A stretch of 64,000 nt of DNA from a virus. Of the stretch, positions 13,385 to 63,247 are shown in pieces. How positions within the stretch are numbered: the first letter of the stretch is position 1; each line of letters begins with the position of its first letter. The notes under the pieces are model-generated. The model made no database searches, was not told the DNA's origin, and saw nothing but the letters and a program-made list of their open reading frames with translations. Where the stretch lies: positions 1-64,000 of IMG/VR virus record IMGVR_UViG_3300040809_000464; one strand, given 5' to 3'. The position numbers and the translations under genes are program-made.

Positions 13385-14749
13385 ATGATTTATGAATTAA
13401 GTAAATTAAATATATTTAGTATAGAGGACCTTAAACTAAAGAGTCTTAGGTATTCTCTCTATTATAACAAGAGTAAGCATTATGAAGTAGTGGTTAAATT
13501 ATTAATTAAGGAATATGGTAAGAAGTATGAACCTGATATAAGATGCTTAGTTACTAACATAGCTAAAGCATTTAAATCAAGAACAAAGTATCTTACTGTA
13601 ACACTACATGCTGCACATTATTCTAATAATATACTAGATATATCTTACCGTAAGACACGTAAACTAATATCTTTAATGGAACAAGATGGTTACATAGATA
13701 TTTATAAGGGTTTCTCTAAAGGTAAGAAGGTTAATCAAGAGTTTGAAGTATCTTTAAGTAGTGCTACAATAATTAAATTTAATAAACCTCTTGAAAATAT
13801 ATGGGAAGACAGGTATCATAAGTATGTAAATCTAATAGATTTCGATCTTATAGAAGTTAGAGACAGAGAAACTAAGAAAAGTAAAAGCACAAGAGGCTTT
13901 AAAGGTCTGTCTGATAAGAAAGCTTTTATGAAGAAGTATAATATGTTACTAGAGAATGTAGAGTTTAGTGTTATGGGTGAAATAGTTCCATCACCACTTT
14001 ACAAAAGAGTATATACAGATAATCCATCTAAAGGTGGTAGGTTCTATAACTGTGGGAATTTCCAAACTATGAAGAAAGAATTAAGACCAAGTATTAAGAT
14101 TGATGGTGAAGATACCGTATGCTTAGATTATTCCGCATTACATCCTTGTCTATGTTACAACCTTGTAGATGTCGAACTAGAAGATTGGTTCTCACCTTAT
14201 GATTGTGATACCAGTTTTATTAAGGTGGATGAAGAAAAGGTTGAAGAATTTAGGAAGAAATATAATAAGCCTAACTACGACCCTGTGAGAAACCTTGTAA
14301 AGATTGCCATGTTATGTGTGCTTAACAGTCCTGAAGGCAATGGTGAGAATAATGCTTCTGTAGCTATATTGGCAATATCTAGTAAGATCGGTCTCGACAG
14401 AGCTAAACAGAATGATGAAGAAACTGTTGGTGATTCTATGTTCTATGGTTTATGCTTTGGTAGGAAACCTATACCAGTTAAAGAACTTGTAAAGAGTATC
14501 TTGACACATAATTTCCCTATTGCAGAGTTCTTCTTTACAGATATTGGATTAGAGTTGCAACGACATGATAGTGATATGGCTGAGTACATCTTAGGGCATT
14601 TCTTACAGAAGAATGAGGTATGCCTCAGTTGGCACGATGGATTTGTTGTCAAGAAAGACTTGAAAGACGAACTCAACAGTGTTATGCTAGATGCTTACAA
14701 AGAAGTGACTGGTACAGAAAAGAATTGTAAGATTAAACAAGAGTATTAG
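13385..14749 (+). CDS. Compact family-A-like polymerase (TV-Pol-like), with winged helix
   Basis: The 454 aa protein has palm motifs of superfamily A polymerases: motif A LDYSALHP with D248; a KIAML/FYG region with K306, like the finger helix; and motif C SWHDGF with H417-D418. The N-terminal part contains a winged-helix-like segment (ISYRKTRKLISLMEQDGYI, near 90). There is no exonuclease domain and it is half the length of the replicative polymerase. This matches my recollection of the transposon-virus polymerase (TV-Pol) family proposed to combine priming and polymerisation. Palm assignment is fairly firm; the family and activity are inference. AGAGG precedes the ATG. Confidence 0.65.
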   Translation: MIYELSKLNIFSIEDLKLKSLRYSLYYNKSKHYEVVVKLLIKEYGKKYEPDIRCLVTNIAKAFKSRTKYLTVTLHAAHYSNNILDISYRKTRKLISLMEQDGYIDIYKGFSKGKKVNQEFEVSLSSATIIKFNKPLENIWEDRYHKYVNLIDFDLIEVRDRETKKSKSTRGFKGLSDKKAFMKKYNMLLENVEFSVMGEIVPSPLYKRVYTDNPSKGGRFYNCGNFQTMKKELRPSIKIDGEDTVCLDYSALHPCLCYNLVDVELEDWFSPYDCDTSFIKVDEEKVEEFRKKYNKPNYDPVRNLVKIAMLCVLNSPEGNGENNASVAILAISSKIGLDRAKQNDEETVGDSMFYGLCFGRKPIPVKELVKSILTHNFPIAEFFFTDIGLELQRHDSDMAEYILGHFLQKNEVCLSWHDGFVVKKDLKDELNSVMLDAYKEVTGTEKNCKIKQEY

Positions 14750-20088: not shown

Positions 20089-20264
20089 ATATATTAAAAC
20101 TATACGTGTGGCTACCCTTTGTACTGATCGGAACTGTATGGGCTTCTGCTGTGTTTGTTATCTATGGAGCCTACTTTGAGTTATTCTTCTTATGGTTCTG
20201 TACTTGGAGGTGTACCTTTGACTTGGTGGGGACTTTAAGGATTATATTGAGAGGTGTTGTTTGA
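20082..20264 (+). CDS. Small hydrophobic membrane protein
   Basis: A GTG at 20082 with GGAGGAG upstream (short spacing) or a GTG at 20055 could start it. About 60 residues are almost entirely hydrophobic with many aromatic residues and two Cys. Located after the holin-like gene, it may be a lysis accessory (second holin or antiholin). Its stop overlaps the GIY-YIG TTG start. Confidence 0.45.
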   Translation: MLDILKLYVWLPFVLIGTVWASAVFVIYGAYFELFFLWFCTWRCTFDLVGTLRIILRGVV

Positions 20265-21175
20265 AGTATTTATATATAATTCATAATAGTGTTAATGATA
20301 AGAAGTATGTTGGTGTTTCAATAAGACCTGATGAAAGGTTTAAACAACATAAAAGAAGAGAAGGTTGCCCAGCTCTACGTAGTGCAATGAAGAAATATGG
20401 CACTGACAAATTCAGTATGGAACTACTTTGTGTAGGTGATGCAGAAACAATAGACCAGTTAGAGATTGAAGCTATACAGTTGTTCAATTCAGTAACACCT
20501 AATGGGTATAATGTATCGTTAGGCGGTGAAGGTGCTAAGTACATACAATGGTCAGATGAACAAGATAATCTTTTATATACGCTTAATAACATTACTGTAG
20601 CTAAACTTTTAAATATAGACCAGAATACAGTAGCTAGACGGAGGAGATTCTTAGGTATACCAAATATACCTCAAGATTTTAGTTGTAAGGAATTTAATAT
20701 AACTAAAGATGTTGAAGAAATATTCAGAGACACATCTATAACTATTAACACTGCGGCTAGAAAAGTCGGATGTGATAAAGCAACTGTATCAAAGTTTAGA
20801 AAGAAACATAACATAGGTCTTGATATAGGTGTACGTAAGGTAAATGGTGATCTAGTAAAGTTTGAACTTACAGAGGATATCATAGAGGAATATAAAGAGG
20901 GTAAACCTTATAAGTTTTTCAAAGAAAAGTATGGTATATCAAGAAGCTTGTTTAACAGACATAGATCAGGTCTTAAACTAACAGTTAGTAATGCGATTGT
21001 TTGGACAGAGGATATGTTAGAAGTGTTATTAAATAAAGAGTACACTGTAAGTAAGAAAGCAAGATTACTAGGATTGAATTACCGTACAGTAGAGAAAAAG
21101 TTGAGGAAGATACATGACAAAAAAGAAACAAATAGTATTGAGTCCTCAGAAAGGACCTCAAGAAGAATTCCTTAA
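20261..21175 (+). CDS. GIY-YIG homing endonuclease with NUMOD/HTH repeats
   Basis: Begins at a TTG (20261) behind GAGAGG. Residues 3-17 read YLYIIHNSVNDKKYVGVS, the GIY/YIG pair; R23 in SIRPDERF, a conserved Glu in LEIEAIQLF and NVSLGGEG complete the catalytic module (first ~95 residues). The rest holds several HTH-like units (TINTAARKVGCDKATVSKFR, SKKARLLGLNYRTVEKKLR) for target recognition. It overlaps the terL start by 62 bp and contains its ribosome site, as expected for a mobile endonuclease beside its target. Confidence 0.85.
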   Translation: MKYLYIIHNSVNDKKYVGVSIRPDERFKQHKRREGCPALRSAMKKYGTDKFSMELLCVGDAETIDQLEIEAIQLFNSVTPNGYNVSLGGEGAKYIQWSDEQDNLLYTLNNITVAKLLNIDQNTVARRRRFLGIPNIPQDFSCKEFNITKDVEEIFRDTSITINTAARKVGCDKATVSKFRKKHNIGLDIGVRKVNGDLVKFELTEDIIEEYKEGKPYKFFKEKYGISRSLFNRHRSGLKLTVSNAIVWTEDMLEVLLNKEYTVSKKARLLGLNYRTVEKKLRKIHDKKETNSIESSERTSRRIP

Positions 21176-23648
21176 AAGAAAAGATGAGGTGTTCCTTGTT
21201 CTCTTTGGTGGAGGTGCAGGTGGCGGTAAAGCACTAAGGGATGACCAACTAGTTTTAACTCCTACAGGTTGGGTGCAGATATCAGATTTAAAGTTTGGTG
21301 ATGAAGTTATGACACCAGACAATGAAGTAACTAATGTTACAGGAGTTTATCCGCAAGGTAAAGTAGATCTATATGAAGTCACTTTATTAGACGGCAGGAA
21401 GTCGATCTGCTGTGGTGATCACTTATGGGAGTGTTGGGATGCACGTAGAGCAAAGAGAACAGTAAGAAAGACTTCAGAGCTTATAGAACGTATTAAGCAT
21501 ATAAATGTATTATTACCAACTGTAGAGGAGATAGATTACTTATCAGAGTACCAAACAGAATTACCTTTAGATGCTTACGTGTTGGGCGCTTTATTAGGTG
21601 ATGGAGGTATGAGTAGCGACAGTGTTAGTTTTACAACTGCTGATGAGTTCTTTATTAAAGAGTTCATTAAGTTAGGTGTAGATATTGTTAAGTGGAATAG
21701 TGGTAAATACGCTTACGGTATTAGAGGTTTAAATCCTACACTAAGATCGCTGAATCTTATGTTTAAGACTTCTCATACTAAATTCATACCAGATATCTAT
21801 AAGAAAGCTTCTATACAAGACCGTAAGAATCTTATACAAGGTTTGATGGATACAGATGGTTATGTCTCTAAGGAAGGTAAACTTTACTATTATACTGTTA
21901 GTGAACAACTTGCAAAGGACTTCCAAGAGGTTGTCAGAAGTCTAGGGGGTTCAGCAACTATAACAGATAAGTATACTAAGTATAACGGTAAGCGTGTTAA
22001 GTCTTATAGTGTTTATATCAAATACAATGAGGGTAAAGAGCTTGTAAGATTACCTAGAAAGAGAAACCTTGCAAGGACTAAGAATACACATAACGGTGTT
22101 CGTATCAAGAGTATTGATAAAGTTGAATCTGGTGAGGCAACTTGCATTAGTGTGGCTTGTCCTAAGAAATTATTTATTACGAATGACTTCATAGTTACTC
22201 ATAATACGTATGGTATACTTTTAGACAACCTTCTATATATCAATGATCCAAATTATTTCTCTGTGTTCTTTAGACGTACACTTGTTGAGTTGAAGACGAA
22301 TCTGTTCCCCGAGATGTTGAGGTTAGCAGAACCATTCTTATTCTATCAGAGCGGTCCAAACAAAGGTAAGCCTAAAGGTAAGGCACATATAAGCCTTCAA
22401 GATTACACAATAACATGGCCATCTGGTGCTAAGACAACTTGTGCATATTTAGATCTAGAAAAAGATTCTGACAAATGGTATGGTGCTGAAATATCAAGAG
22501 CTTACTTTGATGAATTCCAGTTTACAAGAGAATATTGTTTCGATGTAATACGTTCTCGTATGCGTTCTAAAGCAAAGATAAAATCTTGTATCAGGTGTAC
22601 ATTGAACCCAGACGATTCACACTTCTGTTATAACTACGTTAGAATATTCTTAGATGAGGAAGGATTCCCAATCCCAGAGTATAGCGGTAGAGAAGCATTC
22701 TTCTTAATACATGACGGTGTGACGTACACAGCTTGGACTAGAGAGGAATTACTTGAGAAGTTCCCTGAGAAAAAAGGCGGTATAAAGAACTACACTTACA
22801 TACCTTCTACCCTAGAAGATAACGCTATCCTTATGAATTTAGAAGCTGATTATAAAGCCACACTAGATTCATTACCAGAAGCAAAGCGTAAGCAGCTCTT
22901 ATTAGGTTGCTGGCACGCTAGTCAGTCTGAAGGGGAGTATTTCCGTAAAGATTGGGTTAAGATGGTAAATGGTTCTGCTGAGAATGCTACTAGGTGTAGA
23001 GCTTGGGATTTAGCTGGTGTAGAACATGATCCTAATAGTACAGGGTATGCTAAGAATCCAGACTGGACTGCTGGTGTACTTATGAGTAAGAGACCTACTC
23101 CGAGCGGTGTACCTATCTATAGGGTTGAAGATGTAATTAGGGATCGTAAATCTATTGGTGATATCGTTAGCTTGATAGTACAGACTTCTGTAGAAGATGC
23201 AGAACTATACGGTGATAAGTATTCAGTATTCATCCCTTCAGATCCAAACCCTTCAGCAACAGCCTTCGCTAAAGATATTGTTAGCAAGTTAGTTGAGAAA
23301 GGTATCAAGGCGTACACTTCAAGTAGTAGGGATAGCAAGATAGACAGATACTTACCATTCTCTTGTGCTTGTCAGAACGATCAAGTTGAGGTTACAATAG
23401 CTCCTTGGAACAAAGAATATTTCCTTGAGTCTGAAAAGTTAACCTCTGACAGGTTGAAACAGAAGAAGCAAAAGGATGATCAGGTGGATGCTACTAGTGA
23501 TGCGTTTATAAGATTAAACAGTACTCGTGTTGTACCAGTCCCCACCTTACCAGCATCTTCTCAATCGACAGCAACCCGTTTAGATGAGCTTCGAAGGGAC
23601 ACTGGCAGAGGATTACCTAACGTGAATGACCTTAAGAAGAACCGTTAG
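21114..23648 (+). CDS. Terminase large subunit interrupted by a class 3 intein
   Basis: The 844 codon gene encodes a ~519 aa terminase after removal of a 325 aa intein (residues 40-364). The extein Walker A is GGGAGGGK|TYG, Walker B AYFDEF near residue 466. The RNase H-like nuclease shows RAWDLAG near 632, SDPNPSA near 710 and DDQVDATSDAF near 788. The enzyme drives ATP-dependent DNA translocation into the prohead and cuts concatemers. Translation starts at 21114 behind GAGG within the GIY-YIG gene. The intein must splice for ATPase activity because it separates the Walker Lys from the Thr. Confidence 0.9.
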   Translation: MTKKKQIVLSPQKGPQEEFLKRKDEVFLVLFGGGAGGGKALRDDQLVLTPTGWVQISDLKFGDEVMTPDNEVTNVTGVYPQGKVDLYEVTLLDGRKSICCGDHLWECWDARRAKRTVRKTSELIERIKHINVLLPTVEEIDYLSEYQTELPLDAYVLGALLGDGGMSSDSVSFTTADEFFIKEFIKLGVDIVKWNSGKYAYGIRGLNPTLRSLNLMFKTSHTKFIPDIYKKASIQDRKNLIQGLMDTDGYVSKEGKLYYYTVSEQLAKDFQEVVRSLGGSATITDKYTKYNGKRVKSYSVYIKYNEGKELVRLPRKRNLARTKNTHNGVRIKSIDKVESGEATCISVACPKKLFITNDFIVTHNTYGILLDNLLYINDPNYFSVFFRRTLVELKTNLFPEMLRLAEPFLFYQSGPNKGKPKGKAHISLQDYTITWPSGAKTTCAYLDLEKDSDKWYGAEISRAYFDEFQFTREYCFDVIRSRMRSKAKIKSCIRCTLNPDDSHFCYNYVRIFLDEEGFPIPEYSGREAFFLIHDGVTYTAWTREELLEKFPEKKGGIKNYTYIPSTLEDNAILMNLEADYKATLDSLPEAKRKQLLLGCWHASQSEGEYFRKDWVKMVNGSAENATRCRAWDLAGVEHDPNSTGYAKNPDWTAGVLMSKRPTPSGVPIYRVEDVIRDRKSIGDIVSLIVQTSVEDAELYGDKYSVFIPSDPNPSATAFAKDIVSKLVEKGIKAYTSSSRDSKIDRYLPFSCACQNDQVEVTIAPWNKEYFLESEKLTSDRLKQKKQKDDQVDATSDAFIRLNSTRVVPVPTLPASSQSTATRLDELRRDTGRGLPNVNDLKKNR
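21231..22205 (+). other. Class 3 intein with LAGLIDADG homing endonuclease
   Basis: In-frame insertion of 325 residues beginning with Ala and ending FIVTHN, followed by extein Thr. Splicing blocks: DHLW gives W66 (block B:12), TCISV gives C305 (block F:4) and VTHN gives T323 (block G:5), the WCT triad of class 3 inteins, which start splicing from the block F Cys instead of residue 1. Block B Thr is replaced by Cys (CCGDH). The central domain carries two LAGLIDADG motifs, YVLGALLGDGG and LIQGLMDTDGYV, so it is probably a full, active element. It sits precisely in the terminase P-loop. Confidence 0.85.
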
Positions 23649-58752: not shown

Positions 58753-59022
58753 TTAATTTACTATGTGGTTACGTAACTTAATAGGGTTGGTCTCTACAAA
58801 GTAACTTCCCCAGACTCCTAACAAGTACCCTGCTGCAACTACACAAAGGAAGAGAATCATATTGGTAGCTAGTATCTCTACATACGCCATCTCTTCATAT
58901 TCAAACTCATACATACCCTTAGCTATAACGATAAACACTAAAGAATACACCATCCAGCTCAAACTCTGTAGGAAGTAACCAAACACTCTCTTACCTGTAG
59001 AGGAGGATTTCCTGTTAGTCAT
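58753..59022 (-). CDS. Small membrane protein with two TM segments, 89 aa
   Basis: TM1 near residues 14-36 and TM2 near 50-73. Basic N-terminus (RKSSSTGKR). It overlaps the RdgC-like gene by 8 bp at its start and lies before SSB. Function unknown; it may tether replication to the membrane. Confidence 0.6.
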   Translation of the reverse strand: MTNRKSSSTGKRVFGYFLQSLSWMVYSLVFIVIAKGMYEFEYEEMAYVEILATNMILFLCVVAAGYLLGVWGSYFVETNPIKLRNHIVN

Positions 59023-59893
59023 CCTTAAGCTTATCCTCTAAGTCTTTAACCATCAAGGATAACTCTGTAATAGTGTAGATCAGAGTCTTGCACAATGTAT
59101 CATCCTCATCTTCTCCTTCCATATTGCTATCAAAGGACAACCCTTTAAAGACGAACTCCTTAGTGATTTCCCCTGTAATGAAACCATCATAAGCGAACTT
59201 ACCTTGAGTGAACATCTTACCAGCTTCAATCATAGCATGGCATTCTTTACCTTCTACACTATTCTTATCAAGCATCCCTTTAGATTTATCCTCACCTACC
59301 AAGATAATCTTATCACCCCACTCCATCGGTTCGACAAGGCTATTATCAATCAACATACTTGTCATAGTATCGCTAAGGTTATCCACTTGTACCTGCTCAA
59401 TATCTTCCCCTTCTACAACGTCCATACCAATAAGTATATTCTTCATAGTATCAACCTCTTTAGATGAAGCTGAGAAGACGTATAAGCGGTTATCTTTAGG
59501 GTTGAGACATGATAGTACACTCTTGTTAGAATAGTTCGCATCGGGTAATAGAGAAGCTTCTACAGCGTCCATAATATCTTCTTTGGTTTCCTTATCAATA
59601 CTATCTACAGAAGAATACTCACCAGAGTCTACTAAGCTAAGGAACCGTTCATGAGCTACATCTTTAACCTTATCCTTAGAGACTGAACGCTTATGGAAGT
59701 TGACAGAGAACCATAGCTTACCTTCTAGTTGTGTTAAGTATTCGTCCCAAGTATCCTTAATAGGAACCAATCCAATAGATTCCTTATGAGAAGGGATACA
59801 TCTAAAGGCGAATCGTTGCTGTGTATCCTCGTTAAGTAAGTTCTCTAAACGGGTATCTGTTAATTGTAATACTGTTAGGTTTTTTAAATTCAT
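59015..59893 (-). CDS. RdgC-like recombination-associated protein, 292 aa
   Basis: The N-terminal NLTVLQLTDTRLENLL, then FRCIPSHKESIGLVP and LYVFSASSKEVDTM, with a C-terminal acidic helix, resemble bacterial RdgC (E. coli RdgC about 303 aa), a ring-shaped double-strand DNA-binding protein that inhibits RecA. The conserved glycines are less clear, so this is a family-level call. A phage copy could limit host recombination or protect ends. Promoter at 59922-59950. Confidence 0.65.
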   Translation of the reverse strand: MNLKNLTVLQLTDTRLENLLNEDTQQRFAFRCIPSHKESIGLVPIKDTWDEYLTQLEGKLWFSVNFHKRSVSKDKVKDVAHERFLSLVDSGEYSSVDSIDKETKEDIMDAVEASLLPDANYSNKSVLSCLNPKDNRLYVFSASSKEVDTMKNILIGMDVVEGEDIEQVQVDNLSDTMTSMLIDNSLVEPMEWGDKIILVGEDKSKGMLDKNSVEGKECHAMIEAGKMFTQGKFAYDGFITGEITKEFVFKGLSFDSNMEGEDEDDTLCKTLIYTITELSLMVKDLEDKLKDD

Positions 59894-60553: not shown

Positions 60554-63247
60554 CTAATGGCATTCTGCCCAATCTCTACCTATTATATAACCTGCTGTTA
60601 ACTCTATATTTAACTTGTAATAGTCTCCAGTTCTTTGAACTGCTTCTGCTGCTAATTGCCCAGCTTTACTGTAAGCCACAAACACACACTTGTCATTAGC
60701 TACAATATCACTCCAGATCTTACTGTTACTTTTAAACTCCGTATCTTTAAACTGTTGTGCTTCCTGTTTAAGTTTCTTAGTATGTAGTTTCTTGTCATCT
60801 TTATCCATATCTTTAAAACCTTCTGGATAATTAAATATCTTGAAAGTGACTTGATCCTTATTTACTTCTAGTTGTGCCTCATCGTGCATCGCTATCATTT
60901 GCTGGCAAAAGTCTTTTTTCTTCCAATCATCTTTAAAGAAATCAACTATTAGGTTATTCTCTCTGAGTAGCTCTTCATGTATTACCATCGCACGTTTAGC
61001 AGCTATAACACCAGCAGACTGAAAAGCAGTGTTTATTACATTACCTTTAGATCTCACAGGTAACTTCCTACCGTCTAACCCTAATAGGAACTTCTTCTGA
61101 CCTTTTGTTTCCCAGTATCTCTGCATATTCTTCTTAAGCTGGTTAAGGGGGAACGCTTGATCCCAGAAAGTATCGAATATTACCTGAGCAGTTGGTAAAT
61201 CACAACCTACGGTCCTTGCCACACGAGGAGGTTGAGCATTATAACTACAGCCATATTTAACACTCTTAGCAGATCCTCTAGGGAAATCAGTACCTAGTAG
61301 GTCAGATATCTTTTCAGCTAATTTAGTATGACAATCATTAGGCTTTTCTAAAGTAAGTGAATTACAATACTCTTTAGTAGGGTCATAGCGCCAACAATAA
61401 TGCGACTCTATCTTAGCTTCTAAACTATCAAAGTCATAACCTATCTGATAATACCCTTCACCAGCACCAAATAGTGACCTCATATTACTACCATACAGAG
61501 AAGTTACCCTAGGTATGTTAGCTACAACCCTGTGTTTCATCCTAGAAGTAGCTGCATCACAAGTACCTGCTGGTGTAGCTATTCTACCATCTTCTCTGAT
61601 ATAAGCCATGTAACCTTTTTCAGCTTCCCCTTCTTCGTCCCATTCAAGACCACCACCTAAGATACTATTACGTCTATGCTTGTAAGTCATATACTCTACG
61701 ATATTTCTAGCGTAGGGGAACTTATCAGATAACTTATCAAGATTAGGACATATCTCTTTTTCTTGACCCTTAGTAAAGTTTGGATTTGTAGGTACTTTAC
61801 ACATACCACCGTCTTTAGTACGTAAAAGCTTAGCCTTCAACCTTGTACGTGTTGTCTCTAGGAGGTCTAACCTTTCTTTACAAAGTGGTGAATTCAATGT
61901 TTCTTCTACATACTTATCTACAGCTTCTTCAAACTCTTGTCTAGTTCTTTTAATCTTAGCTGTTTTAGTTTTTCTTTCATACAGATCCTTCTCTTTGAAT
62001 TCACTAGGGACCCAACCAAACTCCTCAACAAGCCATCCTTTTATATGGGTAGAGTCATTGATAGTTGCAACCATACTGGTCTTTACAGGTTCTAAGTCCA
62101 TTGGTAGTGCATATGTTTTACCATATAAAGTTACTTCTGTATTGGCTTCATTAACACTACCTTCATGTCTATCTAAAAAGTTAACCATATGATTAGATAG
62201 TGTACGTTCTTCTTTTATTACAGTACCTTGTTTAATAGGTAAAGTATATGTCTTACCATATAAGGTACATTTACGGTCATCCAATAACTTCCCATTGTTC
62301 TTGTCAATGAACTTTAACATGATAGCACTTACATCACCACTCTTTTTAAACTGGGTCTTAGGTGGCTCTACTGTAACTACCTTTACCTGATTTACTGGTG
62401 GAGTATGATCAGATAAGAATTTCTTTGTAGCTTTTCTAGGAGGAAGAACTGGCTCTACTGTAACTCTATGCTCTTCCATCATCTTATCTAACTCTTCAAC
62501 AGAATCTTCTGCCAGTTTCCTATTAAAAGCAAAACCTCTATGTTCTTGTCTGGTAACAATATCCGCTACTTTCTTTTCAAGTCTGATCGGGTCATCCCAT
62601 TCCCAGTTACCTTTCTCCTTCTCTAAGTATTTATACACCTTAGTATTTACAAGAACATCCCTGATACAGTAGTACAACATATCTGCTGCAAACTCTTCAA
62701 ACTTCTTTTGTTTGTCCTTGATATAGGGTCTGAAATCTATCTTACGTAAACCCACCTTCTCTGACAAGTTATCAAGACTATGCCCACCAAACCTATCAGG
62801 ATTTAACGTCTTAGACAGTACCATTGTATCAACTATCTCGGTAGGTTTACCACACCAAGAGTCAGGCTCTACTTGATAATCCATACCGTAGTAAAGTTTA
62901 CAAACAAGATGATCATAGTTAATCCCATTGTGAGCCACCACCTTATTTATTTTATTACTTTCAATATAAGATTTAAACTCGTTCAACTGTTTATGTACAT
63001 ACTTGACAGGCTTATAATTCTCCAAGACGTAATCTACATCAATAGATCGACCTTTCTCAGAGTATTTCCTCCCATCAAGTTCATAAGTATCACCATTATA
63101 GAAAGCAATGATCTCTCCAGTCTGGTGGTTCTCTGTAACAATACAATGCATCTTAAAAGAGTTTTTCAACTTGTACGGTGAACTTAGGTAATCAATCGTA
63201 TTATGGTTAAGTAAGTTATTAGCCTCTATATCGAAAGTAATATCCAA
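60554..63247 (-). CDS. DNA polymerase I family (T7 gp5-like), 897 aa
   Basis: TTG start at 63247 behind AGGAG. 3'-5' exonuclease: Exo I D6/E8 (FDIEAN), Exo II near 106 (AHNGINYD), Exo III Y193-D197. Polymerase motif A near 604 (YDFDSLEAKIE), motif B (SAKSVKYGCSYN), motif C H787-D-E. It replicates the genome with the downstream gp4-like helicase and SSB. A lysine-rich insertion near residues 255-420 contains a tandem repeat around two TLYGKTY motifs. Confidence 0.9.
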   Translation of the reverse strand: MDITFDIEANNLLNHNTIDYLSSPYKLKNSFKMHCIVTENHQTGEIIAFYNGDTYELDGRKYSEKGRSIDVDYVLENYKPVKYVHKQLNEFKSYIESNKINKVVAHNGINYDHLVCKLYYGMDYQVEPDSWCGKPTEIVDTMVLSKTLNPDRFGGHSLDNLSEKVGLRKIDFRPYIKDKQKKFEEFAADMLYYCIRDVLVNTKVYKYLEKEKGNWEWDDPIRLEKKVADIVTRQEHRGFAFNRKLAEDSVEELDKMMEEHRVTVEPVLPPRKATKKFLSDHTPPVNQVKVVTVEPPKTQFKKSGDVSAIMLKFIDKNNGKLLDDRKCTLYGKTYTLPIKQGTVIKEERTLSNHMVNFLDRHEGSVNEANTEVTLYGKTYALPMDLEPVKTSMVATINDSTHIKGWLVEEFGWVPSEFKEKDLYERKTKTAKIKRTRQEFEEAVDKYVEETLNSPLCKERLDLLETTRTRLKAKLLRTKDGGMCKVPTNPNFTKGQEKEICPNLDKLSDKFPYARNIVEYMTYKHRRNSILGGGLEWDEEGEAEKGYMAYIREDGRIATPAGTCDAATSRMKHRVVANIPRVTSLYGSNMRSLFGAGEGYYQIGYDFDSLEAKIESHYCWRYDPTKEYCNSLTLEKPNDCHTKLAEKISDLLGTDFPRGSAKSVKYGCSYNAQPPRVARTVGCDLPTAQVIFDTFWDQAFPLNQLKKNMQRYWETKGQKKFLLGLDGRKLPVRSKGNVINTAFQSAGVIAAKRAMVIHEELLRENNLIVDFFKDDWKKKDFCQQMIAMHDEAQLEVNKDQVTFKIFNYPEGFKDMDKDDKKLHTKKLKQEAQQFKDTEFKSNSKIWSDIVANDKCVFVAYSKAGQLAAEAVQRTGDYYKLNIELTAGYIIGRDWAECH

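Follow-up and report, generated by a model that had tools for sequence, protein, structure and literature searches.

The large terminase gene (terL) of the virus recorded as IMGVR_UViG_3300040809_000464 is interrupted, within its P-loop codons, by a genuine and well-formed class 3 intein, a new example of a known family, whose splicing and homing we infer. In the window analysed here (the first 64,000 nucleotides of that record), the terminase reading frame encodes 844 residues (21114-23648, + strand, as are all terL features below), of which 325 form an in-frame insert (21231-22205). It is very probable that this insert is a full-length, endonuclease-bearing intein that splices out of the terminase of a tailed phage and homes in the manner proposed below.

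The frame is unbroken over the 844 codons. The 39-codon N-extein (21114-21230), which resembles the N terminus preceding the intron of the related J2-1 gene, ends in VLFGGGAGGGK with the Walker A Lys; the insert runs from ALRDDQ to FIVTHN; and the C-extein (22206-23648, stop codon included) starts as TYGILLDN with the Walker A Thr. The split thus falls exactly between the P-loop Lys and Thr (FGGGAGGGK/A...THN/TYGIL), with the junction codons AAA (Lys, 21228-21230), GCA (Ala, 21231-21233), AAT (Asn, 22203-22205) and ACG (Thr, 22206-22208), and the gene without its intein would read ...GGCGGTAAA/ACGTATGGT... across the junction. The flanks are those of a terminase by Pfam (Terminase_6N, E = 9.7e-12; Terminase_6C, E = 1.9e-8; both above cut-off), and the C-terminal part is 52% identical to the J2-1 terminase and 78% identical to that of contig L086. 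The product belongs to the terminases that couple a Terminase_6 ATPase to an RNase H-like nuclease, and its Walker A motif is whole only once the insert is removed. An earlier note made from the sequence had placed an insert at this point of the P-loop, and the exact coordinates and the flanking terminase domains agree with it. Its deduction that the intein would have to be spliced out before packaging follows soundly from the disrupted P-loop. This terminase provides a clean case of the Walker A Thr serving as the +1 residue, so that DNA packaging should be contingent on splicing.

Downstream of terL lie genes for the portal, the head maturation protease, the major head protein and the tape measure. 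The intein is present in a single copy in the virus record of 88,675 bases. No second intein was found in the translation of the family A DNA polymerase reading frame (60554-63247), which has no match to Pfam Hint or endonuclease domains; the adjoining gene is RdgC-like (59015-59893, - strand; Pfam E = 8.1e-18). A conserved phage protein (phrog_4756, E = 6.3e-92; no Pfam match) is encoded at 13385-14749 on the + strand. An Rfam scan of the window returned no match at the intein or terL.

The class assignment rests on the markers defined in PMC5222942 and PMC7891396. Position 1 holds Ala rather than a Cys, Ser or Thr nucleophile, and in the relatives it is mostly Ala or Gly. The Trp of block B (B:12), the Cys of block F (F:4) and the Thr of block G (G:5) are W66, C305 and T323, and these are accompanied by the block B His (H64), the C-terminal H324-N325 and the +1 Thr. 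In an alignment with 56 viral relatives, H64, the block F nucleophile C305 (22143-22145) and the terminal T323-H324-N325 (22197-22205) are invariant, and the W66 column holds Trp in 51 and Phe in 5. H64/W66, C305 and THN also pair with the same residues of the class 3 intein MchDnaB1, a pairing that combines sequence alignment with overall superposition. The reading of the insert as a class 3 intein with Ala1 and this Trp-Cys-Thr (WCT) signature, first put forward in the earlier note, is thereby borne out residue by residue. Matches to the Pfam Intein_splicing and Hint models are below their cut-offs.

One detail of that note did not hold. Within block B (C61, H64 and W66; 21411-21428), Cys at position 7 had been regarded as atypical, yet it is the commonest residue of its column (Cys 21, Asp 15, Gly 14, Ser 3 and Thr 3 among the 56 relatives). 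We therefore rejected the idea that C61 is a catalytic oddity. According to PMC6195587 and PMC7891396, the block B Thr is in general absent from class 3 inteins or not conserved in them, and C61 is usual variation.

The predicted structure agrees with this assignment. An AlphaFold2 model of the intein, built from 53 aligned sequences, has a mean pLDDT of 95.8. Its splicing part has the HINT fold and superposes on the Msm DnaB intein (6bs8; Z 21.1, 123 of 125 residues) and on MchDnaB1 (6rix) at 1.4 and 1.9 Å, respectively, over 123-128 residues. Failure of the WCT positions to superpose had been named beforehand as evidence against class 3; the fit to 6bs8 favours class 3. The whole model aligns with PI-SceI (Z 27.4; 317 residues; 3.0 Å), and Foldseek concurs with the structural alignments.

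The two LAGLIDADG motifs that had been reported from the sequence are likewise present, as LGALLGDGG (residues 118-126; 21582-21608) and LIQGLMDTDG (residues 201-210; 21831-21860), together with Pfam matches to LAGLIDADG_3 (E = 9.1e-12), which bears on the second motif, and Hom_end (E = 6.7e-8). Each of the two helices carries its acid: D124 is Asp in 55 of the 56 relatives and Glu in one, and D209 is invariant. Two motifs with both acids mark a full-length homing intein. Such motifs occur in 82.5% of the 1701 class 3 inteins counted so far (PMC7891396), a majority to which the terL intein belongs, so that it represents one divergent addition to at least 1701 known members. A search with a degenerate junction pattern did not find this phage's terL without the intein, an allele that would have pointed to mobility.

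Relatives of the intein are widespread and distant. At least 139 IMG/VR viral stretches encode one (best E = 4e-63; the best 80 were kept), which places the element far beyond chance, and at least 761 phage records contain relatives, of which 729 cover at least 80% of the intein, all at less than 60% identity. Identity to the closest inteins is only about 40%, the terL intein sits on a long branch of the tree, and no nucleotide-level relatives were found among the phage records. Its viral relatives reside mostly in the P-loops of SNF2-type helicases, PhoH and other ATPases. On the intein tree, host proteins were labelled from the P-loop peptide by a simple rule, and a few helicases fall under 'other'.

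What was read directly is the reading frame with its boundaries, the signature residues, the fold and the family; the splicing steps that follow are transferred from tested class 3 inteins (PMC5222942, PMC7664689, PMC7891396), and nuclease activity and homing are likewise proposed. After translation, C305 would attack the Lys39-Ala1 peptide bond with the help of H64 and T323, and a branched thioester would form before the chain is passed to the +1 Thr. Cyclisation of N325 would then free the intein, and an acyl shift would leave a normal Lys-Thr bond, restoring the Walker A motif (GGGAGGGKT) and the ATPase. In co-infection, the LAGLIDADG domain would make its cut in the P-loop codons of terL alleles that lack the intein, and repair would copy the intein into the cut allele.

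Three other accounts of the insert deserve consideration. Ala1 excludes class 1 chemistry, and classes 2 and 3 both lack a nucleophile at position 1 (PMC5222942), so a class 2-like start in which the +1 Thr attacks the N-terminal junction directly might be envisaged. We consider this scarcely credible, because the class 3 triplet is complete, C305 is invariant in the 56 relatives, and tested class 3 inteins cannot use the +1 residue in place of the block F Cys (PMC5222942). It is also quite unlikely that the insert has degenerated into one that no longer splices well, or only cleaves, and that the terminase acts in pieces or has no function. Splicing is deduced here, and pseudogenes are known among intein relatives, one of them in Arthrobacter and not in a terminase (PMC3196547); against this, no catalytic residue and neither nuclease acid has been lost, no break occurs in the 844 codons, and terminase activity is essential to a tailed phage. 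Nor is it at all likely that packaging is redox-controlled by a disulfide linking C305 to C60 or C61 of block B. A reversible Cys48-Cys118 disulfide does block the class 3 Msm DnaB intein (PMC6195587), and Cys is common at positions 60 (32/56) and 61 (21/56), but the partner Cys of Msm DnaB lies at another position and nothing in this phage points to such regulation.

The Lys/Thr site has been occupied elsewhere. Class 3-type inteins interrupt the same terminase P-loop in the phages TaPaz (L083), HM1 (L084) and PF672P1 (L085) and in one further contig (L078); those of TaPaz, HM1 and PF672P1 are divergent from the intein described here. On the intein tree, terminase-site inteins are scattered without forming a common group, which suggests either repeated arrival at the site or an ancient divergence of the inteins. 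We tried a single origin, and it was not supported: the five terminase rows require five changes, three of them forced by supported branches, on a tree whose branches are long. Among the 80 viral loci listed for the same P-loop peptide, 72 are uninterrupted and none carries an intein, a pattern that fits a mobile element of sporadic occurrence.

The same P-loop segment holds introns in most related terminases. Group I introns lie in the P-loop codons of terL in Pseudoalteromonas phage J2-1 (L082 584-826; E = 2.6e-18) and in Vibrio phage ICP1 (E = 1.1e-9, a match that does not reach the curated score), whose transcript has been shown to be spliced (PMC10448857). The P-loop introns placed in related terminases are, besides that of J2-1, at L089 2714-2939, L094 1966-2252, L096 2252-2538 and L102 3482-3676; the model matches of L094 and L096 exceed the curated score and that of L102 falls just below it. 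The L095 terminase gene matches the model weakly, those of L099 and L101 are interrupted at the P-loop without a model match there, and those of L103 and L106 are uninterrupted. In a rebuilt terminase tree, from which rows L083 and L112 were left out, J2-1 groups with the intron-free, long-branched L090. Further group I matches lie in terL downstream of the P-loop intron (L096 2649-2863 and 3146-3949; L087 3410-4021), one of them in pieces with an endonuclease-like reading frame (HNH-like by eye) between. A second interruption of the J2-1 gene (L082 1244-2056) holds a free LAGLIDADG-type reading frame of 270 residues, judged from its motifs by eye, and the annotated gene starts only past it. 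The contig of L086, the closest terminase relative, begins 14 codons after the Lys/Thr junction, a break that may reflect a mixed population of alleles.

Immediately upstream, and outside the intein, a GIY-YIG homing endonuclease gene (20261-21175, + strand; Pfam E = 1.7e-9) with a TTG start and helix-turn-helix repeats overlaps the start of terL by 62 bases. J2-1 has a homologue in the same place (46% over 136 residues), whose gene spans the ends of the record and, when joined, is split between two frames. The corresponding position in ICP1 is taken by a T5orf172 endonuclease, unrelated to the GIY-YIG protein by BLAST, for which collaborative homing with the intron has been discussed (PMC10448857). 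We tentatively raise the possibility, which we regard as doubtful, that unrelated self-splicing elements share the P-loop codons as a landing site in this terminase lineage: relatives would carry the group I intron, and this phage would have lost it, or never had it, and acquired the class 3 intein, with a GIY-YIG gene next to terL either way. Should the GIY-YIG enzyme have the P-loop as its target, an intron and an intein, each with an endonuclease of its own, would be rivals for a single site. Introns and inteins within one gene are known as 'intron-intein coincidence', a term met as cited in PMC3653736 and PMC2814812, and terL is therefore a new instance and not a new principle. The interest lies mainly in the contrast between intron and intein at one P-loop, and of wider value is how this phage compares with J2-1 and ICP1, whose related terminases have group I introns in the P-loop segment that contains an intein here, with an endonuclease gene adjoining. 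Whether intron and intein compete in homing to one site thereby becomes testable.

Among the closest known systems is the intein of Acinetobacter phage TaPaz (TaPaz_gp49), likewise WCT class 3-type, full-length (355 residues) and inserted at the Lys/Thr of the terminase P-loop. It was published as an intein without a class (PMC8228797); the whole precursors are only 31.6% identical, terminase and intein both being distant, and the TaPaz intein is not the nearest kin on the tree. In mycobacteriophages, an insertion at the TerL1-a site likewise separates the invariant Lys and Thr of the large-terminase P-loop (PMC5050341), but that terminase is of another family (terminase_1), and PMC5050341 names only TerL1-c and TerL1-e beside the class 3 DnaB-b. 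The mycobacterial DnaB inteins Msm DnaBi1 and MchDnaB1 share the splicing fold, the WCT residues and the site after the P-loop Lys (PMC6195587, PMC7664689, PMC5222942), whereas they are mini-inteins without an endonuclease, have Ser at +1 and reside in a helicase; in Msm DnaBi1, the block B residue is Asp. The ICP1 and J2-1 introns, finally, occupy the same P-loop codons of a related terminase with a homing endonuclease gene just upstream, but by our own reading, which takes exon 1 to close with T and the intron with G, they precede the intein site by about 2-6 codons, and they are removed from the RNA and not from the protein.
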